Source of the DNA: Sideroxydans lithotrophicus ES-1
GTDB lineage: Bacteria > Pseudomonadota > Gammaproteobacteria > Burkholderiales > Gallionellaceae
Length of the DNA stretch: 64,000 nucleotides
Assembly (NCBI RefSeq): GCF_000025705.1
Contig: NC_013959.1
Coordinates: 2,736,001 to 2,800,000, forward strand
Reading direction: 5' to 3'
Positions 53,171 through 61,105 of this stretch are shown in pieces; the stretch's first letter is position 1, and every line of letters begins with the position of its first letter. Below the pieces are notes generated by a model that did no database searches, was not told the DNA's origin, and saw only the letters and a list, made by a program, of their open reading frames with translations. Both the position numbers and the translations under genes were made by a program.

Positions 53171-53620
53171 TCAACGCAGCCGCTGCTCCAGCCACGCATC
53201 GACCGACCACTTGCCGCGACTGAGTATCAATAGCACAGTCAGCAACGTTCCCCAGCAGAAATGCTGGAACAGCCCTGCTTCGCTCAATCCCGAGTAATAC
53301 GAATAAGCCGCGACCACGTTGAGTATGAACAACCCCGCCGCCGCGAATCTTCCGAACAGCCCCAGCACCAGCAATACCGACAAGCCGAGTTCACCGGAAG
53401 TCGCCAGATATGCCGCTACATCCGAATTGAGCAACGGCACTTGATAGACGTCGCTGAACAGATACAGCGTACTGTCCCAGCTTTTGATCTTGGTCAGGCC
53501 GGATTTGAAGAACACATCTGCAATATAAAGCCGCAGCGCGAGATCCAGCAACGGCGCCAGATATTCCGGCCAGTGTGAGGCGGTGTAATAGAATCTTGCC
53601 AAGCGCGATAACACATTCAT
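53171..53620 (-). CDS. DoxX-family membrane protein of the bufferin operon
   Basis: A 149-aa DoxX-like protein with four membrane segments. LALRLYIADVFFKSGLTKIKSWDSTLYLF and LATSGELGLSVLLVLGLFGRFAAAG (shown here as family landmarks) match the DoxX fold; DoxX proteins often accompany MNIO/DUF2063 genes. ATGA overlap with bufC. Its role, perhaps quinone- or metal-linked, is not established. Confidence 0.85.
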   Translation of the reverse strand: MNVLSRLARFYYTASHWPEYLAPLLDLALRLYIADVFFKSGLTKIKSWDSTLYLFSDVYQVPLLNSDVAAYLATSGELGLSVLLVLGLFGRFAAAGLFILNVVAAYSYYSGLSEAGLFQHFCWGTLLTVLLILSRGKWSVDAWLEQRLR

Positions 53621-54393
53621 GGTGTTTTCTCTAAATTGAAATTCGCAAAAATATTTTGTGCGACCAGCTTCAGCAATACGGCTTGTAAATCGAAATCCGG
53701 ATCACTTTCCAGTGTGGCAGCGGTCACATCCCCCAAAGGAATCCCAACGCTTATGCGGTGCAGCCATGCAGCCTCGGCTTCCGCCAGCTCGCTGACCAGA
53801 ACGAGATCGCCGCGGCGGCAGACCAGCGCATCGCATGCGCCGCTATCCAGATCGATACGGAAATCGTCGCCTACACCGGGCTGGTGTGCATGCCAGATGG
53901 CGGCAACGGGATAGCGGGAATGCAGCAGATGACATGACGGCTGCAGATGCAGGATCAGCTCCGCATAGCGTTCGGCCGGTATCTGCGCCAGTTCGTCGAT
54001 ATCCAGTGCATCCGCGTCAGCCGCGAAATAAGCCTGGTGACAGGCCCATTCCAGCGCCGCCACATCCTCCAGATAGAGCAGCTCTTTCGCCGGTTCGAAG
54101 GCCGCCACAAAATCCGCCAGCTCCGCGCCGTAACGATGCAGGTTCGCGTTGCGCGACGGGTATTGCGCGATGAATTTCCTGCCCATGAAGCGGAAGAAGT
54201 CGTCACCGACCAACTGCCTGACCACCGGATATGCGCCGGCCAGCGCATCGTGCAGATTGCCGCGATAATTGTTGCGATAGATGTCGATGGCGATAGCGGC
54301 AGAATAGTTCGCATAAGTCCCGTCGACCCGTGACGATGCTTCCTCGCCGCCCACGATGGCTCGCGCAAAATAATCAAGTTCAGCATTCAGCAT
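53617..54393 (-). CDS. BufC/HvfC-type partner protein (DUF2063)
   Basis: A 258-aa protein with the DUF2063 N-terminal domain: IYRNNYRGNLHDALAGAYPVVRQLVGDDFF and YPSRNANLHRYGAELADF are its landmarks (quoted in part). In MNIO systems this protein acts with the oxygenase, probably presenting the precursor peptide. The C-terminal half is a second helical/beta domain with VCRRGDLVLVSEL. It overlaps bufB by 14 bases and doxX by four, giving a coupled operon. Confidence 0.88.
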   Translation of the reverse strand: MLNAELDYFARAIVGGEEASSRVDGTYANYSAAIAIDIYRNNYRGNLHDALAGAYPVVRQLVGDDFFRFMGRKFIAQYPSRNANLHRYGAELADFVAAFEPAKELLYLEDVAALEWACHQAYFAADADALDIDELAQIPAERYAELILHLQPSCHLLHSRYPVAAIWHAHQPGVGDDFRIDLDSGACDALVCRRGDLVLVSELAEAEAAWLHRISVGIPLGDVTAATLESDPDFDLQAVLLKLVAQNIFANFNLEKTP

Positions 54394-55228
54394 GGCATTC
54401 CTCCAGCGCTTGCAGACGCTGCTGCGCCCTGGCCGCCTCTCCCATCAGCACGGGCAACGCGGGGATATCGCTATCCCACTCGATCAGCGTGGGACGCGGA
54501 CCGATTTGCCGCAGCACGGACTCATACAACTGCCACACCTCCGGATAGACCGGATGGTCGTGCGTGTCCACCAGACAGCCGTCGCGCATGCTGTAGCCGG
54601 CCAGGTGATACTCCTTCACCGCAGCCGCTGGGATGGCCTCGATGAACGCCTTGGCGTCGACGCCAAGATTGCGCACGTTCACAAACAGGTTCTCCACGTC
54701 GAACAGGATGCCGCAGCCGGTGCGCTGCGTCAGTTCGGCGAGGAACTCGCCCTCGGTCATCTCGCTGTGGGAAAAAGACAGGTAACTGGACAGGTTCTCC
54801 ACCAGCAATTGGCGCCCCAGCCTTTCCTGCACCTGGTCCACGCGACGCGCCACATGATCCAGCGCTTCGCGGGTGTAGGGAAACGGCAGCAGGTCGTTTA
54901 CCACCATGCCTGCTACCGCATTCCAGCACAGATGCTCCGACACGGCAGCGGGCTGCACGTCTTCGCACAAACGTGCCAGCGATGACAGATGCCCTTCATC
55001 GAGCGCAGTCGTCGATGCCAGTCCCATGCCGACGCCATGCAGGCTGACGGGGTAATGCTCGCGCACTTTGCGCAGGGTATGCAGCGGCGCACCGCCGCCG
55101 AAAAAATTCTCGCTATGCACTTCCACCCAGCCTAGCCTGGGTAACGTTTCCAGGACCTCACGGTAATGAGGTGCCCGCAACCCTATTCCTGCGATAGACG
55201 GCAACATACCGGTTGCGGGCCTGGACAT
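54380..55228 (-). CDS. BufB-type multinuclear non-heme iron oxygenase (MNIO, DUF692)
   Basis: A 282-aa TIM-barrel MNIO enzyme. The metal ligands recognisable by family are all here: VEVHSENFFG, SLHGVGMGL, SEHLCW, LVENLSSYL, ILFDVENLFVN, VKEYHLAGY, VDTHDHPV and IEWDSDIPAL. BufB enzymes oxidise cysteines of a bufferin precursor to thio-oxazole groups using iron and O2; the substrate should be BufA encoded just upstream. The ATG at 55228 shares a base with the bufA stop (TGATG); a GTG one codon earlier is possible. Confidence 0.9.
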   Translation of the reverse strand: MSRPATGMLPSIAGIGLRAPHYREVLETLPRLGWVEVHSENFFGGGAPLHTLRKVREHYPVSLHGVGMGLASTTALDEGHLSSLARLCEDVQPAAVSEHLCWNAVAGMVVNDLLPFPYTREALDHVARRVDQVQERLGRQLLVENLSSYLSFSHSEMTEGEFLAELTQRTGCGILFDVENLFVNVRNLGVDAKAFIEAIPAAAVKEYHLAGYSMRDGCLVDTHDHPVYPEVWQLYESVLRQIGPRPTLIEWDSDIPALPVLMGEAARAQQRLQALEECHAEC

Positions 55229-55494
55229 CACATCGACTTCAGCATGCCGCCGGCGATCTTGTCGCAGGTTCCCTTGGGAACGGCGACGAAATCCATCGGA
55301 TCGTTGTTCTTGGTGGCCTGACCGGCACAGGAGTGCGCAGCCTTGTTGCTGGAGCAGTCATTCATGCCGGCCTTGGCGATGCCGAAGCATTTTTCCATTT
55401 CCACCTTGGGCTTGTCGGCGGCACTTGCAGTACCTGCCAGGCCCAGCGCCAACAGACCACCGATTGCGAGCGACAACATCTTTTGCTTTTCCAT
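55228..55494 (-). CDS. BufA1-type bufferin precursor (DUF2282)
   Basis: An 88-aa precursor with a Sec signal peptide (cut near TASA-A, residue ~25) and four cysteines at 36, 47, 56 and 77. The DUF2282 pattern is plain: [24 protein letters not shown] and [14 protein letters not shown]. In characterised bufferins of this class Cys residues are oxidised by the MNIO enzyme and the mature protein chelates copper in the periplasm. AAGGAG lies seven bases before the ATG. It heads bufA-bufB-bufC-doxX and its own SigF-type promoter lies ~120 bases upstream. Confidence 0.9.
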
Positions 55495-55615
55495 TTTGAT
55501 ACTCCTTTTGCGGGTTGGTTGATCGAAGAAGATTCTTCAACTATTGGTCGGGCCAGAGTCTCGTTTCCTTACACTTCTTTTCGGACTCGCGATATCTCGC
55601 CCTCGCACCGATGGA

Positions 55616-55641
55616 TTCGGGAGTATCGAAAAAATGGTTAC
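55616..55641 (-). promoter_or_regulatory. SigF-type ECF promoter of the bufferin operon
   Basis: GTAACC (55636-55641) and CGAA (55616-55619) with exactly 16 bases between them, on the minus strand. This equals the promoter pattern I recall for Caulobacter SigF and is shared with the sites at 58983 and 59883. The expected leader to bufA is ~115 bases and contains a small GAAGAA/TTCTTC inverted repeat (55525-55538). Confidence 0.78.
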
Positions 55642-55646
55642 ACGGC

Positions 55647-56009
55647 TCATGCAAATATATCGAGGCGACTTCCGGGCGTGACGGCTGATGGAGCGGAGCC
55701 AGTGCCGACATCATTACCTGGCTTGTCTGCTTGCAACACTTGATCGACAGGAAGGACCTCATTCAGTCCATTGGTACCGCTGGTGCGCCTGGCATCTTCT
55801 GCAGCCTTCATCTGCGACTCGACTTCGCCGATCCTGGCGGATATCTGCGCGATCCTGTTCTTGCCCTCGATGGTATTGCAGGATGCGCACGTGACCCAGT
55901 CAGCCAGCTGCTGCCTGTACCGGTCCAGTTGCACCTGAAGGCCGGCAGTAGAGCTGCCCACCGCAACATGGTGCGCAAAGGAAGCCGGACCGACCGCGCC
56001 TACCTTCAC
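55647..56009 (-). CDS. Uncharacterised 120-aa protein with a CASC motif, in the msr operon
   Basis: A 120-aa protein: N-terminal part rich in small residues without a clear signal, then a coiled/helical middle LQVQLDRYRQQLADWVTCASCNT followed by IAQISARIGEVESQMKAAE (quoted in part), and a disordered Gly/Pro/Ser tail. The CxxC pair (near residues 41-44) sits between two helices. The GTG start at 56009 is preceded by GGAG and lies 13 bases after msrA, so it is the last gene of the msrB-dipZ-msrA unit. I recall similar small proteins in Betaproteobacteria with no known function. A redox or metal role is a guess from context. Confidence 0.65.
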   Translation of the reverse strand: MKVGAVGPASFAHHVAVGSSTAGLQVQLDRYRQQLADWVTCASCNTIEGKNRIAQISARIGEVESQMKAAEDARRTSGTNGLNEVLPVDQVLQADKPGNDVGTGSAPSAVTPGSRLDIFA

Positions 56010-56022
56010 GCGCGCTCCGGCG

Positions 56023-56649
56023 TCACTGATATAACGCCGGGAATGTCTTGTGCAGACGATCCAGTTTGGGCATGTCGTTGAACACGATATAAGGCTGGTA
56101 GGGATGCAATTCCAGATAGTTCTGGTGATGTTCTTCCGCCGGGTAGAACTGTTTCAGCGGGACCAGCTGGGTGACGATAGGCCCGCGAAAAACATGCTCG
56201 GCGTTGAGCTTCTGCATATAGTCCTGTGCAGCCTTCTGTTGCTCCGCACTGGTGTAGAAGATCACCGAGCGATATTGGCTACCGGTATCCGGCCCCTGGC
56301 GGTTGAGCTCGGTCGGATCGTGCGCGACATAGAAGAACACTTGCAGCAGTTGCTGGTAAGACACCTGTGCCGGATCGAAACGGACACGCACCGATTCGGC
56401 ATGGCCGGTATCGCCCTGGCTCACCATCTCATAGTGTGCGGTTTCCGCGCTGCCGCCCGAATAACCCGATACGACATTGCTCACCCCCCTGACATGCTTG
56501 AACACCGCATCCACGCCCCAGAAGCAACCGCCGGCGAACACTGCCGTCTGCTCCGCGGGCACGGCACCGGCATTGGTGAACGTACCCAGCCCAAGCATGA
56601 GGCCCAGACCACCAAGAAAGAAACTGCGAATGACTTTGATCGTTAACAT
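56023..56649 (-). CDS. msrA: Periplasmic peptide-methionine (S)-S-oxide reductase
   Basis: A 208-aa MsrA with an N-terminal signal/anchor (residues ~1-28), so it acts outside the cytoplasm. The catalytic AGGCFWGVDAVF has Cys42; EVxxGYxGG appears as VVSGYSGG and GHAESVRVRFDP follows. Cys42 is the only cysteine, so this is a 1-Cys form without a resolving thiol and must be reduced by an external thiol partner, probably the thioredoxin domain of the DipZ-like protein encoded just upstream. AGGAGG precedes the ATG at 56649. Confidence 0.94.
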   Translation of the reverse strand: MLTIKVIRSFFLGGLGLMLGLGTFTNAGAVPAEQTAVFAGGCFWGVDAVFKHVRGVSNVVSGYSGGSAETAHYEMVSQGDTGHAESVRVRFDPAQVSYQQLLQVFFYVAHDPTELNRQGPDTGSQYRSVIFYTSAEQQKAAQDYMQKLNAEHVFRGPIVTQLVPLKQFYPAEEHHQNYLELHPYQPYIVFNDMPKLDRLHKTFPALYQ

Positions 56650-56667
56650 GATGACCCTCCTATGCAA

Positions 56668-58365
56668 TCAGCCGAACGTGAACGCGAACGCCTCACTGTC
56701 GGCATCCAGAAATTCAATCTTGAAAGTCAGATCCCTGATCTTGCCGCTTTGCCGCACGAGCTGGTAGAGGCGCTGTTCCCGTATCACACCATTGCCCTGC
56801 GCATCGGTGTCCACCCCGTGGTCCTTGCCGGGCGCCGCCCCGTCCAGCGTGACCCTGAAGCGCACCGGCTTGCCGCTATGCGGCCCCAGCACCAGATGCA
56901 GGTCGCGACCACGGAAGCGGTAGCTGATCCCGCCACCCGCTGCATCCAGTTGTGCGGACTCCTTGCCGACCCGCCAGCTTCCGCTCAGCGCCCAGTGGTC
57001 GGCCTTGAGCTTGCGCGGCGCAGTGTAGCGGGCCGGTTTGTCGCGTTCGATCGCCTCGGGTGACGCAAAATTCTCCTGGCGTCCATAGCCCACATAGGTC
57101 TCCGGAGAACGATCCATGTCGGTTGCGGCAGCCAACGCACCGGCACCCTGCACACGTACGAATCCATCCTTGAATGCCAGGTTCTGGTGAGCTTCCTTGA
57201 GCAGGGTCTGGATCATCTGTTCGGTCTCACGGTATGCGCCTTCACCGAAATGCTCATGCCGGATGTGTCCCTGGGCATCGATCAGGTAATGCGCGGGCCA
57301 GTATTCGTTCTGGTAGGCATTCCAGATCGCATACTGGTTATCGACCGCCACCGGATACCTGATGCCGAGTTCGCGCACGGCCTGTTCGACATTATGCAGA
57401 TCCTTCTCGAAAGCGAACTCCGGTGCATGCACGCCGACGATGACCAACCCCTGCTCGCGATACTTTTCATCCCATGCCTTCAGGTACGGCAGCGTGCGCA
57501 AACAGTTGATGCAGGAATAGGTCCAGAAATCCACCAGCACCACTTTGCCGCGCAACGCCTCCATGCTCAGCGCCGGTGAGTTGATCCATTCTGTCGCGCC
57601 GTTCAGTGGCGCTGCCATGCCGGTCTCGGCAACCTCTATCGCCGCCGGACGTTGCGCCAGTTGCCGGATCAAGTGCTGCTCTGCGGCAGTGGTGTTCGCC
57701 GAAGTGAACTGCGCCAGGAAGCGCGTATCCCAGCCGAATGCGATGACGACGATGCCCGCCACCACGGCGACACCGAGTACGCGTCGCACCCATTCCTCGA
57801 CGCCGAAACTGCGCTTCATCCAGGCGATCACGCGACCGCTGGCCAGCAGCGCCACAGCCAGCGAAGTCGCCGCACCGGCTGCGAACGTGAACAGCAGCAA
57901 CGCACTGTGCAGGTTCGCACCGTTCAACGCCGCGCCTGCCAGCACCAGCCCCAGGATGGGTCCGGCACAGGGCGCCCACAGGAAACCGACGGCCACACCC
58001 AGCAGCAACGATCCCTTGATACTGCCTTGCTGGTCGGCACGTTGCTGCAGGCGCCCGCCGAACACGACGAAAGGCCGCATCATGCGTTCCGACCATGATG
58101 GAAAAATCAACGCCAACCCGAGCAACAACAGCAAGGCCATTGCCGCATAGCGGCCGTACTGGTTCACCTCGACCAGCCACGCTCCGCCCACTGCAGCCAG
58201 GCTGGCCAGCACGGCGAACGTCACTGCCATGCCGATCAGGACAGGCAGGCCGGAACGCCGGAACGACCGTTCCGAACGGGCGAATACGAACGGCAGCACC
58301 GGCAGCACGCACGGGCTGAGGATGGTCAGGACACCACCGAGATAGGCGAGCAGGAAGATCAGCAT
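56668..58365 (-). CDS. DipZ-like CcdA-thioredoxin fusion (periplasmic electron supply)
   Basis: A 565-aa fusion. Residues 1-~230 are a CcdA/DsbD-beta membrane domain of six helices with the paired cysteines Cys19 (LSPCVLPVLP) and Cys133 (WAPCAGPILG). Residues ~255-400 are a TlpA/AhpC-like thioredoxin domain with WTYSCINCLRTLPY (CINC active site). Residues ~420-565 are a beta-rich C-terminal domain like that of mycobacterial DipZ. It carries electrons from cytoplasmic thioredoxin to periplasmic clients; msrB is 15 bases upstream and msrA 18 bases downstream, which identifies the likely clients. Confidence 0.92.
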   Translation of the reverse strand: MLIFLLAYLGGVLTILSPCVLPVLPFVFARSERSFRRSGLPVLIGMAVTFAVLASLAAVGGAWLVEVNQYGRYAAMALLLLLGLALIFPSWSERMMRPFVVFGGRLQQRADQQGSIKGSLLLGVAVGFLWAPCAGPILGLVLAGAALNGANLHSALLLFTFAAGAATSLAVALLASGRVIAWMKRSFGVEEWVRRVLGVAVVAGIVVIAFGWDTRFLAQFTSANTTAAEQHLIRQLAQRPAAIEVAETGMAAPLNGATEWINSPALSMEALRGKVVLVDFWTYSCINCLRTLPYLKAWDEKYREQGLVIVGVHAPEFAFEKDLHNVEQAVRELGIRYPVAVDNQYAIWNAYQNEYWPAHYLIDAQGHIRHEHFGEGAYRETEQMIQTLLKEAHQNLAFKDGFVRVQGAGALAAATDMDRSPETYVGYGRQENFASPEAIERDKPARYTAPRKLKADHWALSGSWRVGKESAQLDAAGGGISYRFRGRDLHLVLGPHSGKPVRFRVTLDGAAPGKDHGVDTDAQGNGVIREQRLYQLVRQSGKIRDLTFKIEFLDADSEAFAFTFG

Positions 58366-58380
58366 GTCAATTGTTCCGGA

Positions 58381-58920
58381 TCATTTGGGTCTGGGCACGA
58401 AACGCAGCGCCACGGTGTTCATGCAATAGCGCAGCCCGGTCGGCTGCGGACCATCGTCGAACACATGGCCGAGATGCGCATCACACAGGGCGCAGCGCAC
58501 TTCGGTGCGCGTCATGCCGAACATGTGGTCCCGGATCTCGCGCACATTCTCGGCTGCGATCGGTTGCCAGAAACTCGGCCAGCCGGTGCCGGAATCGTAT
58601 TTGGTGGCGGCGTCGAACAGCGCGTTGTCGCAGCACACACAGCGATACAGGCCCGGCTCGTGCCTGTTGTAACCGGGCTGCGAGAACGCCATCTCGGTAC
58701 CCTGCTCGCGCGTCACCTCATAAGCCAGCGGCGACAGACGCGCTTTCCACTCGGCCTCCTTGTGCACCTTGGCCAGAGTGACTCGCCCCAGCGGCTTGCC
58801 GTCATCGGAGAATCGCATGATGGTCACCTGATCGTTGGCATCTGGTGTTTTGGCTAAAGAGCGCGCCGAATAAGCCAGCGCCATTCCGGACACCGCCAAC
58901 AAGAAATCTCTGCGTTGCAT
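58381..58920 (-). CDS. msrB: Exported peptide-methionine (R)-S-oxide reductase
   Basis: A 179-aa MsrB with a Tat-like signal (QRRDFLLAVSGMALAYSA). Zinc ligands are C94/C97 (CVCC) and C143/C146 (CALC), and the catalytic Cys166 is in LRYCMNTVALRF. The usual resolving Cys in GCGWPSF is replaced: the sequence reads SGTGWPSFW, so the enzyme needs an external reductant, as MsrA does. GGAGGG precedes the ATG; the SigF-type promoter at 58983-59008 lies ~60 bases upstream. First gene of msrB-dipZ-msrA-unknown. Confidence 0.94.
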   Translation of the reverse strand: MQRRDFLLAVSGMALAYSARSLAKTPDANDQVTIMRFSDDGKPLGRVTLAKVHKEAEWKARLSPLAYEVTREQGTEMAFSQPGYNRHEPGLYRCVCCDNALFDAATKYDSGTGWPSFWQPIAAENVREIRDHMFGMTRTEVRCALCDAHLGHVFDDGPQPTGLRYCMNTVALRFVPRPK

Positions 58921-58982
58921 GATGTTGCCCTCCTGTGAAGATGGGTAAACCCGGACCGCTCCTGACTCACCCTGACTGTAGA

Positions 58983-59008
58983 TTCGCGCCGGACCGAAGA
59001 ATGGTTAC
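58983..59008 (-). promoter_or_regulatory. SigF-type ECF promoter of msrB-dipZ-msrA
   Basis: GTAACC (59003-59008), 16 bases, CGAA (58983-58986) on the minus strand. Outside the two boxes the spacer also starts with ATT and a T-rich run as in the bufA site. Predicted start about 55 bases before msrB. Confidence 0.8.
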
Positions 59009-59063
59009 ATCGGCTCTCCGTCACGCGGAAGGCGGAGATGGGAATCCCCCAGACAGGGATCCC

Positions 59064-59774
59064 CTAGGACACGAAGGGTGGCGTGCGCCCGACCAGCGCT
59101 TCCGCCATGATCAACTCCTCGTCGCTGTGGTTCGGCCTGGCCAGGTGGCTCGCGCCATGGATACACTGACCCGGCCGCTCCTGGCGGTAGATATACAGAG
59201 GCTTGTCGTGATGCACGGAATGCACGCTCTCCTGGCTCGTACCGTCGTTCCTTGCCACGACATCGACATCGCCGTAGCAGTTGCAGAAATAGGTCCGCTC
59301 CGGCCCCGCCTCCAGATAGACACCGGTACCGCGTATGCCTATCGTGGCCGTCGGCGTTTCGATCTGCAAACCCTTGTTGCGCGAGACCGACAGCAGCTTG
59401 CCTGCAAGCAACCTCAGCCCGCCGATCAATAGCGAACCGATATCCTCTTCCTTGGGCCTGATCACCAGGTGACTTTCACTGCGTAGCAGCATGGCGTGGT
59501 CGCCGACCACAAAGACCAGTTCGCTGTCCTTGCCGGTCTTCACCGTATCGTTGGGCCCGATGCGCGTATTGGCATCCACCGGGTTGCCATTCACCCACGC
59601 CCGGCCCTTCAGGCGATAGACCGATTGCGTCGCCGGTAGTTTCTCTGGCGGCTTGAATGCGATGGCGAACGCCTTGACTGCCGGCAGCATCATGCCCAGC
59701 AGCCCTGCCCCCAGACCTTGCAGCAAGCGTCTGCGTTGACGACCGGTCGTTCCATGTTCCAGGTTTTGTTGCAT
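59064..59774 (-). CDS. Tat-exported FecR-domain protein
   Basis: A 236-aa protein. The N-terminus RQRRRLLQGLGAGLLGMML is a twin-arginine signal. A FecR domain (~residues 70-160) shows NTRIGPNDTVKTGKDSELVFVVG, LLAGKLLSVSR and TATIGIRGTGVYLEAG (quoted in part). The tail has a CNC motif (YFCNCYGDVDVVARN) and one more Cys. FecR domains in the periplasm usually relay signals to ECF sigma/anti-sigma pairs; this one lacks the N-terminal cytoplasmic part of classic FecR. It is divergent from the sigma gene and has its own SigF-type promoter. AAGGGGGAACG precedes the ATG at 59774. Confidence 0.82.
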   Translation of the reverse strand: MQQNLEHGTTGRQRRRLLQGLGAGLLGMMLPAVKAFAIAFKPPEKLPATQSVYRLKGRAWVNGNPVDANTRIGPNDTVKTGKDSELVFVVGDHAMLLRSESHLVIRPKEEDIGSLLIGGLRLLAGKLLSVSRNKGLQIETPTATIGIRGTGVYLEAGPERTYFCNCYGDVDVVARNDGTSQESVHSVHHDKPLYIYRQERPGQCIHGASHLARPNHSDEELIMAEALVGRTPPFVS

Positions 59775-59882
59775 CGTTCCCCCTTTATCCAAGTCGTTCA
59801 TGTCGGTAGCGGCCCGCACATTTCAACACAGTCCGGGATGCCGGCTATGTTATATAGTGTCGATCGCATCTGCGCCGATATG

Positions 59883-59908
59883 TTCGGGCGGAAGCAGAAT
59901 AAAGTTAC
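59883..59908 (-). promoter_or_regulatory. SigF-type ECF promoter of the FecR-domain gene
   Basis: GTAACT (59903-59908), 16 bases, CGAA (59883-59886) on the minus strand; one base differs from the other two sites in the -35 box. It lies in the divergent region, 23 bases before the sigma-factor start codon on the opposite strand, so transcription from it runs away from the sigma gene. Confidence 0.68.
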
Positions 59909-59930
59909 ATACAGTAGCGACGGAATCAGG

Positions 59931-60470
59931 ATGGCAGACCAGGACGACAATCTGGAACGACTCATGCAGCAGTCCCTGGCTGGAGACCAGCGCGCCTACG
60001 CACTCCTGCTGCAGGAGACCGCACGCCTGCTGCGCCCGTTCCTGTCCAAGCGCCTGAGCATGGCCGATGAAGTGGAAGACCTGCTGCAGGAGATACTCAT
60101 CTCCGTGCACAAGGCCCGCCATACCTACGATGGCAATCGCCCGTTCAGGCCCTGGCTGTATGCCATCGCCCGATTCCGGCTGCAGGATCACTTGCGCACA
60201 CACTATTCCGACCAGCTGCGCCATGCCGTCGACTTCGACGAACTGGAAGAATTTTTGCATGACCCTGTAACCGAATCGGTGATGAGTTACGAATCCATCA
60301 GTGGGGAGGTGGATAAACTTCCCGAGAAACAGGCGACCATCCTGCGCCTGCTGCATCAGGACGGATACACCGCCAGGGAGGTCGCCGAGAAGATCGGCAT
60401 GACCGAATCGGCGGTCAAGGTCGCAGCGCATCGCGCTTACAAGGTATTGAGAACGAAACTGGAAAGATAA
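59931..60470 (+). CDS. sigF: ECF RNA polymerase sigma factor, SigF type
   Basis: A 179-aa ECF sigma factor. Region 2: LLLQETARLLRPFLSKRLSM, DEVEDLLQEILISVHKARHTYDGNRPFRPWLYAIARF (landmarks only). Region 4: LPEKQATILRLLHQDGYTAREVAEKIGMTESAVKVAAHRAYKVL with the recognition helix (quoted in part). The DGNRPFRPWLYAIAR stretch and adjacent NrsF gene place it with the Caulobacter SigF group. Start is MADQDDNLER at 59931; upstream ATGs would overlap the FecR promoter. The stop shares a base with the nrsF start. Confidence 0.88.
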   Translation: MADQDDNLERLMQQSLAGDQRAYALLLQETARLLRPFLSKRLSMADEVEDLLQEILISVHKARHTYDGNRPFRPWLYAIARFRLQDHLRTHYSDQLRHAVDFDELEEFLHDPVTESVMSYESISGEVDKLPEKQATILRLLHQDGYTAREVAEKIGMTESAVKVAAHRAYKVLRTKLER

Positions 60471-61105
60471 TGGCAAACATCGACGATCTCGTGGCAAGAC
60501 TGGCACAGGATGCGACCGCAGTCAGACCTGCGCCGCACCCGTTCCTGCTGAGCCTGCAATGGATAGGCGCTGCAGCGGCCTATCTTGCGGTGTCGCTCGC
60601 GCTGTCCGGCCCGCGCCCGGACCTGCTGGAAAGATTCCATAGTCCCTGGTTCGTCGCCGAGGTCGCCACCCTGCTCGCCATCTTCATCGTCACTGCGATC
60701 AGCGCCGCCTTGCTGGCATTCCCCGACCTGCACCAGAAACGCACCCTCGCCTTCGCGCCGGTGGTGCCGTTCCTGCTGTTCGTGGTGGTCATGCTCTTTG
60801 CATGGCATGCCGACAGCCCGCCTTCGCTGCCGCCTGTGCACAGTTTCGAATGCACGCTCAGCATCACGCTGATGACGCTGCTGCCCGCCGGCTGGACGTT
60901 CTATTCACTGCGCAAGTTCGCCAGCACCCACTACCGCCTCGCGGGCAGCGTCGCGTTGCTGTCGGCCTTCAGTGTCGGCGCGCTGTGGCTGCGGCTGCAT
61001 GAAACGACCGACTCCATCGCACACGTCGTCGAATGGCACTACCTGCCCATGCTCGCCATCGGACTGCTGGGTCTGTGGCTGGGAAAACTGATCCTGAAAT
61101 GGTGA
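60470..61105 (+). CDS. nrsF: NrsF-type (DUF1109) membrane anti-sigma factor
   Basis: A 211-aa inner-membrane protein with six membrane segments (~28-46, ~62-83, ~92-112, ~125-147, ~158-175, ~190-208), the DUF1109 layout of NrsF, which holds SigF at the membrane until metal or oxidant stress. HSFECTLSITLMTLLPAGW carries the first conserved cysteine (~127). The second periplasmic cysteine that I recall in Caulobacter NrsF is missing: the matching stretch reads LRLHETTDSIAHVVEWH. The gene overlaps sigF as TAATG. Confidence 0.85.
   Translation: MANIDDLVARLAQDATAVRPAPHPFLLSLQWIGAAAAYLAVSLALSGPRPDLLERFHSPWFVAEVATLLAIFIVTAISAALLAFPDLHQKRTLAFAPVVPFLLFVVVMLFAWHADSPPSLPPVHSFECTLSITLMTLLPAGWTFYSLRKFASTHYRLAGSVALLSAFSVGALWLRLHETTDSIAHVVEWHYLPMLAIGLLGLWLGKLILKW

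Follow-up and report, generated by a model that had tools for sequence, protein, structure and literature searches.

Self-amplification is commonly attributed to extracytoplasmic function (ECF) sigma factors. Published systems are described here and below from excerpts of the cited papers, one of which, a review, counts about 55% of the ECF sigma factors with predicted targets as autoregulated (PMC8103513). In Caulobacter crescentus, the ECF16 sigma factor SigF acts at the motif GTAACC-N16-CGAA, as an earlier sequence-only reading of the DNA discussed here had correctly stated, and controls two bufferin-type operons and a YedY gene (PMC3511200). Excess copper is chelated by bufferins (PMC12452194), and in perchlorate islands exported MsrA/MsrB and a methionine-rich peptide are reported together with sigF/nrsF, with MsrA/MsrB versions in two islands (PMC4623255). 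A Sinorhizobium system was not induced by peroxide, cadmium, or chromate in its authors' assay. Published ECF16 regulons already place bufferins and Msr proteins under SigF. Here, we analyze a 64,000-nucleotide (nt) stretch of the Sideroxydans lithotrophicus ES-1 genome (NC_013959.1, positions 2,736,001 to 2,800,000), called the window below, in which sigF and nrsF adjoin a bufferin operon, an Msr operon, and a gene for an exported FecR-like protein (Table 1; L and G numbers are our labels for loci and genomes). With a probability of roughly 0.7, we read this cluster as an ECF16-type SigF/NrsF envelope-stress regulon in which outer boxes would drive three units and a promoter inside sigF would drive nrsF alone.

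Three sites of the form GTAAC[CT]-N16-CGAA had been claimed in the window, and all three are exact matches on the minus strand, each standing upstream of one transcription unit. They have the ECF16 SigF/NrsF target box (T/C)GTAAC-N17-CGAA, GTAACY-N16-CGAA being the same pattern as GTAAC-N17-CGAA. The accompanying judgment that three such sites are unlikely by chance holds as well, as 100 dinucleotide shuffles of the window gave a mean of 0.04 sites and at most 1. A looser scan of the window, allowing two mismatches, carried no information, with 147 matches against 113 expected. The sequence-only reading had also called for a genome-wide scan, with random placement of a frequent motif counting against it. 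The whole genome, a single contig of 3,003,656 bases, contains 7 matches to the bare motif against 11 for the motif written backwards, a result that leaves the cluster standing and puts the genome-wide count at chance level. The bare motif alone therefore cannot define a regulon, and a wide regulon marked by it in this genome was rejected, the other four matches (L001, L002, L003, and L007) all lying within long open reading frames. A longer consensus derived from relatives, GTAACYWTT-N13-CGAAY, has 2 matches in the ES-1 genome, both in the cluster, and 0 control matches; the fecR box is one base off this form.

Conservation of the outer boxes was followed in relatives by mapping the neighborhoods of FecR and NrsF matches for the window proteins and the motif. 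The 39 SigF loci, including the window, amount to 590,028 bases, and a scan for GTAACY-Nk-CGAA with k from 11 to 21 gave 63 sites at k = 16, 32 at k = 17, and 0–4 at each other k, against 0–4 for the backwards control at every k. A box lies no more than 250 nt upstream of bufA in 11 of 12 cases (the exception is L126). For msrB, 30 of 31 rows have a box on the same strand within 2.5 kb upstream, 21 of them within 250 nt, and for fecR all 13 rows have one within 2.5 kb, at most 250 nt away in four and with genes of the same run in between in the others. The longer motif occurs 43 times in 61 genomes, and its backwards control 12 times. Of the 43, 34 are within 10 kb of an nrsF match, and one more (G017) adjoins a sigF fragment at the end of a contig. 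Seven of the remaining eight were read (all but G073:C59:174426). Two of the seven precede bufA, a third precedes an exported MsrB followed by MsrA, two more stand before proteins that by eye are spondin-like in one case and periplasmic-binding-like in the other, and the last two are within open frames. An origin of the three outer boxes by chance, with no co-regulation of their units, would agree with the genome-wide count of the bare motif and with the control sites that the longer form finds in the 61 genomes, yet the position, the spacing, and the downstream genes are conserved across many genomes, so that hardly any likelihood is left to this explanation. The compact regulon of bufferin, exported Msr, and FecR-like genes that the sequence-only reading had proposed is well supported by this conservation; as a combination it is not new in kind.

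A further site, overlooked in that reading, lies inside sigF. It falls in the linker that joins sigma regions 2 and 4, some 176 nt ahead of the start of nrsF. Its extended form, GTAAC-N18-CGAATC, occurs once in the ES-1 genome, in sigF. In the 39 loci, 29 of the 32 sites at k = 17 fall inside sigF, 27 of them 176–178 nt before nrsF. Codon use was compared in 46 distinct sigF genes of the window type. The valine at the site is encoded by GTA in 44 of 44 genes, the other two having Leu CTA and Ala; elsewhere in sigF genes, in a set that includes a few distant ones, GTA accounts for 48 of 291 valine codons. Threonine is written ACC in 43 of 45, and all 46 genes use GAA for the glutamate and a codon with C as its last base for the Tyr/Phe. 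In a scan of synonymous conservation, V113, Y120, T114, E115, and E121 rank highest among 149 columns, and the top window is that of the ten codons starting at 112 (0.41, median 0.10). By these codon comparisons, the inner site is kept through codon choice beyond what the amino acids need.

It could be argued that the site is no promoter and that the linker peptide V-T...Y-E-S-I is kept for the protein, its codons following from bias or shared descent. In its favor, the window-type genes (subgroup A below) also conserve the residues V, T, Y/F, E, S, and I, and the sigF genes are related. Against this stand the contrast between GTA at this valine and at the others, the variation of neighboring codons, the presence here of five top synonymous columns, the match of both halves to the SigF box, and the lack of a box before sigF in subgroup A, and we regard the protein explanation as unlikely.

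The position of the box separates two subgroups of SigF. Among 399 genomes of the order, 31 have a SigF match: the identity is about 66% or higher in 22 of them and 37–40% in the other nine, eight of which were read (G135 was left out). With the earlier loci and three more from a search of 369 genomes of the class added, subgroup A comprises 47 distinct sigF genes from nine families. GTAAC-N18-CGAA is inside sigF in 45 of the 47, and spacers of any other length between 8 and 29 are absent from these genes. A box within 350 nt before sigF, the position expected for ECF16, is present in 0 of 47, and an upstream box of its own for window-type sigF was rejected on this count. Subgroup B consists of 14 rows from 13 genomes (L131 and L274 are identical) and has the box before sigF in 12 rows and inside sigF in none. 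L282 and L284, which were fetched after the rule had been seen, follow it. The subgroup-A genes without the inner site are L044 and L120, both directly behind a bufferin operon with its own box. This arrangement is found in 4 of 46 genes, and both site-less genes are among the four, a placing with a chance of 6 in 1035 by a hand calculation that ignores shared descent.

The inner site might alternatively bind SigF polymerase as a pause, roadblock, or titration site and not serve as a promoter of nrsF, since the longer spacer could weaken initiation and conservation alone does not show transcription. However, the site is fixed just before nrsF on the same strand and is lost only where nrsF has another SigF-boxed promoter, and this explanation appears quite improbable. 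We infer that the inner site is used as a promoter and that it closes a feedback loop. By analogy with Caulobacter, Brucella, and the perchlorate reducers, the membrane anti-sigma factor NrsF would hold SigF until a periplasmic oxidant or metal signal arrives. Freed SigF would then transcribe the three units: the bufferin unit would lead to metal chelation, MsrB-DipZ-MsrA, which brings its own electron supply, would repair oxidized methionine outside the cytoplasm, and the third would supply the exported FecR-fold protein. Basal transcription of sigF would come from another promoter, and the promoter in the linker codons of sigF, with its spacer one base longer, would serve nrsF only. SigF would raise its own inhibitor and not SigF itself, so that the loop would be a negative feedback in which the response ends as the signal fades. 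In subgroup B, the promoter before sigF would let sigma and anti-sigma factors rise together.

More broadly, it seems fairly probable that a whole ECF16 branch has been rewired in this way, the SigF promoter having moved from before sigF into its linker codons, the usual positive loop having become a pure brake, and the promoter shaping the linker and decaying where a different SigF promoter serves nrsF; with the second NrsF cysteine lost as well (see below), such a circuit would form a distinct class that arose convergently. What the sequences themselves show is the sites, how they are spaced, a conservation that exceeds amino-acid need, and the exchange of place between the subgroups.

Several points weigh against this interpretation. 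All promoter use in ES-1 is something we infer from conservation, and the subgroup counts are not independent because the genes share descent. In subgroup B, a box is missing altogether from L283 and from the stretch before sigF in L129; in subgroup A, L042 and L045 retain the inner site though a bufferin operon with a box precedes their sigF. With GTAAC-N18-CGAA, the inner site exceeds the outer boxes by one base in its spacer, and the spacers of two Sinorhizobium promoters, 17 and 16, are shorter too. E115, a top column of the synonymous scan, adjoins the inner box but lies outside it, and its rounded value is shared by E9, a distant column. Finally, Caulobacter sigF, though boxed, is not strongly autoregulated (PMC3511200), and the contrast between the subgroups may therefore be smaller in practice.

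The genes of the cluster (Table 1) are as the sequence-only reading had described them, and the profile matches agree. DUF2282, DUF2063, DoxX, MsrA, MsrB, and the DsbD/thioredoxin fusion all pass their Pfam thresholds and BufB its NCBIfam cut-off. The DUF2282 precursor, MNIO maturase, DUF2063 protein, and DoxX together have the composition of a bufferin 1 cluster, and SigF has both sigma regions 2 and 4, as expected of an ECF sigma factor. The catalytic motifs of MsrA, MsrB, and the DsbD-thioredoxin fusion can be read in the sequence, and we take their roles to be the customary ones; exported MsrA and MsrB with such a fusion would repair methionine.

Table 1. Coordinates of the genes and SigF boxes of the cluster within the window
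Feature	Position	Strand	Remarks
doxX	53171..53620	-	Pfam
bufC (DUF2063)	53617..54393	-	Pfam
bufB, MNIO bufferin maturase	54380..55231	-	NF050167, 368.8 bits vs NCBIfam cut-off 310
bufA, bufferin precursor (DUF2282)	55228..55494	-	Pfam
SigF box before bufA	55616..55641	-	Exact motif match
Small CxxC protein	55647..56009	-	No Pfam or NCBIfam match
msrA, N-terminal signal	56023..56667	-	TIGR00401, 174.4 bits
DipZ-like DsbD-thioredoxin fusion, electron supply	56668..58365	-	DsbD_TM, AhpC-TSA, Thioredoxin_10
msrB, twin-arginine-like signal	58381..58920	-	TIGR00357, 184.9 bits
SigF box before msrB	58983..59008	-	Exact motif match
Exported FecR-fold protein, twin-arginine signal	59064..59774	-	Start may be upstream (open reading frame from 59819)
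SigF box before fecR	59883..59908	-	Exact motif match; weakest of the three
sigF, ECF sigma factor, 179 aa	59931..60470	+	Sigma70_r2 at 27-91, r4_2 at 127-171
Proposed SigF promoter inside sigF, GTAACC-N17-CGAA (= GTAAC-N18-CGAA)	60267..60293	+	Motif scan, conservation
nrsF, six-helix-type anti-sigma, 211 aa, single-cysteine subgroup	60470..61105	+	PF06532

The small CxxC protein has relatives in 6 other genomes of 100; four of these relatives lie in SigF loci (L115, L119, L124, and L127), two of them behind a methionine-rich peptide and a SigF box. Methionine-rich repeat peptides directly follow a box in several relatives among the loci listed; a gene of this kind was sought in the ES-1 genome and none is recognizable, the best match having an E-value of 0.9. 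By eye, further SigF boxes precede spondin-like exported proteins (L128, downstream of nrsF, and L241), a possible further regulon member, as well as a cytochrome-b-like and twin-arginine (Tat) oxidoreductase-like pair (L119, 5550-5575) and a beta-propeller-like exported protein (L117, 4107-4132).

The FecR-like protein falls slightly below the Pfam cut-off for FecR (22.9 vs 24), and no solved structure is related to it by sequence below an E-value of 0.67. Its predicted structure has a mean predicted local distance difference test (pLDDT) score of 84.9 and a predicted template modeling (pTM) score of 0.78, and the best matches of the model in the PDB are the FecR/PupR periplasmic domains 4m0n, 4m0h, and 6ovk (Foldseek probability 1.00), with modest TM-scores of 0.43–0.44 over 126–139 columns; as modeled, the protein has the FecR periplasmic fold. 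Neither a cytoplasmic anti-sigma domain nor a membrane span was found in it, and only the twin-arginine signal precedes the fold. It differs from the FecR/PupR signaling domains in being Tat-exported, in lacking the cytoplasmic anti-sigma domain, for which reason it would not be an anti-sigma factor, and in having a conserved C-x-C and His/Asp/Glu set. C164, C166, H189, H216, D218, and E220 do not vary among 19 sequences gathered independently of any pattern (A1) or among 53 gathered with one (A2), where the invariance of C164 and C166 is partly selection because that pattern contains C-x-C. This set suggests a metal or redox site, and a periplasmic metal- or redox-binding accessory may be guessed at as the role of the protein.

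The sequence-only reading had presented this protein as a new exported, sensor-like member of the regulon, the sensor role being conjectural. Its box is conserved; the protein itself is a genus option. At 60% identity or more, it occurs in 13 of the 21 same-genus genomes that have NrsF and in 0 of the 15 remaining genomes whose NrsF match exceeds the cut-off. Among 100 relatives, 15 have it at that level, 13 of them beside sigF, while the other two, G020 and G058, lack an NrsF match. The gene may be its own unit, follow a methionine-rich peptide, be part of the Msr run, or close the bufferin operon; in every placement a box precedes it. Members of the wider family are widespread in Betaproteobacteria, with 69 of 80 loci lacking a match to the window SigF in the stretch covered; the closest named records include Sideroxydans, Gallionella, and Gallionellaceae, and in the FecR tree the 13 cluster rows lie within one fully supported 18-row branch and do not form a clade of their own (4 label changes). 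To judge from this distribution, the gene is a lineage-specific recruit to the SigF regulon. The ES-1 genome has a second FecR-like gene, 56% identical, behind a lipoprotein-like gene (G000:C1:1479016-1479684, L038), with neither a SigF box nor a cluster gene found near it. In another genus of the family, a FecR relative directly follows a different MsrB without a signal (L068 and L077; also L192 and L205), with no SigF nearby; the arrangement hints at a FecR-Msr link independent of SigF.

The sigF-nrsF pair claimed earlier is present: NrsF passes Pfam PF06532 (156.2 vs 26.8 bits), falls far under the NCBIfam NrsF equivalog cut-off (42.3 vs 300 bits), and, as an NrsF/DUF1109 anti-sigma factor adjoining sigF, has the ECF16 arrangement. 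The Caulobacter type implied for the pair does not apply to its NrsF, in which the second of the two cysteines conserved in ECF16 NrsF is a glutamate. In 38 aligned rows the first cysteine is kept in all 38 and the second in four, with Glu in the other 34, including the window (one of the 34 is the fragment L133). The second cysteine is required in Caulobacter (PMC3511200) and conserved in Brucella (PMC8315932), and without it the Caulobacter mode of sensing cannot simply be carried over to the window. In this NrsF subgroup (60470-61105, L039-L133), a conserved stretch H-E-x-x-D-S-I-x-H...W-H-Y and the Glu replace the second sensor cysteine. A periplasmic co-sensor role, in which the FecR-like protein tunes NrsF in place of the lost cysteine, would suit its fold, its conserved C-x-C, His, Asp, and Glu, and the position of fecR next to sigF in all 13 examined relatives with both. 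The proposal is nevertheless doubtful, as the protein has no anti-sigma part, two genomes have it without NrsF, and the cysteine is also gone in relatives without FecR, for example L108-L124; as a replacement for the cysteine, FecR was rejected because the loss is wider than its presence.

In the reading preferred here, an ECF16-type regulon with a promoter for nrsF inside sigF, the greater surprise is the inner promoter. The point at which feedback would enter differs cleanly between two subgroups of one ECF type, and the sign of a stress-response loop could then be read from sequence. Promoters of this sort, inside coding sequence, are invisible in gene annotation. The regulon itself would unite copper chelation, periplasmic methionine repair, and a FecR-fold exported protein in iron-oxidizing bacteria, whose envelopes plausibly face oxidants.

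With Caulobacter crescentus SigF/NrsF (ECF16), the window shares the box, bufferin-type operons with DoxX, adjacent sigma and anti-sigma genes, and a periplasmic Msr-type gene, which is YedY there and MsrB-DipZ-MsrA here (PMC3511200). Caulobacter has the box before sigF and two conserved NrsF cysteines, whereas the window has the box inside sigF, one cysteine, and an added FecR-fold protein (PMC3511200). The bufferin 1 clusters have bufA-bufB-bufC-doxX beside sigma/NrsF genes, as in the window, and the excerpts on them mention neither Msr nor FecR genes, both of which the window has (PMC12452194). Brucella BcrS/AbcS and the perchlorate-island SigF/NrsF are hypochlorite systems, for which the excerpts name no bufferin or FecR-like gene, unlike the window (PMC8315932, PMC4623255). 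Unlike the window sigF, Brucella bcrS carries a box upstream and is subject to autoregulation (PMC8315932). The methionine-rich repeat peptides of the relatives resemble those of the Brucella and perchlorate-island systems, from which ES-1 differs in having no recognizable one. A promoter inside sigF of this family was not described in the literature searched, which consisted mostly of papers open without subscription, and Corynebacterium glutamicum provides the sole experimental parallel found for an inner sigma-gene promoter. There, a SigH-controlled promoter inside sigH drives rshA alone and sigH is transcribed from other promoters, as shown by experiment, whereas the window circuit is proposed from conservation (PMC3489674). 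The two belong to different ECF groups and phyla, and their likeness is therefore one of convergent design.

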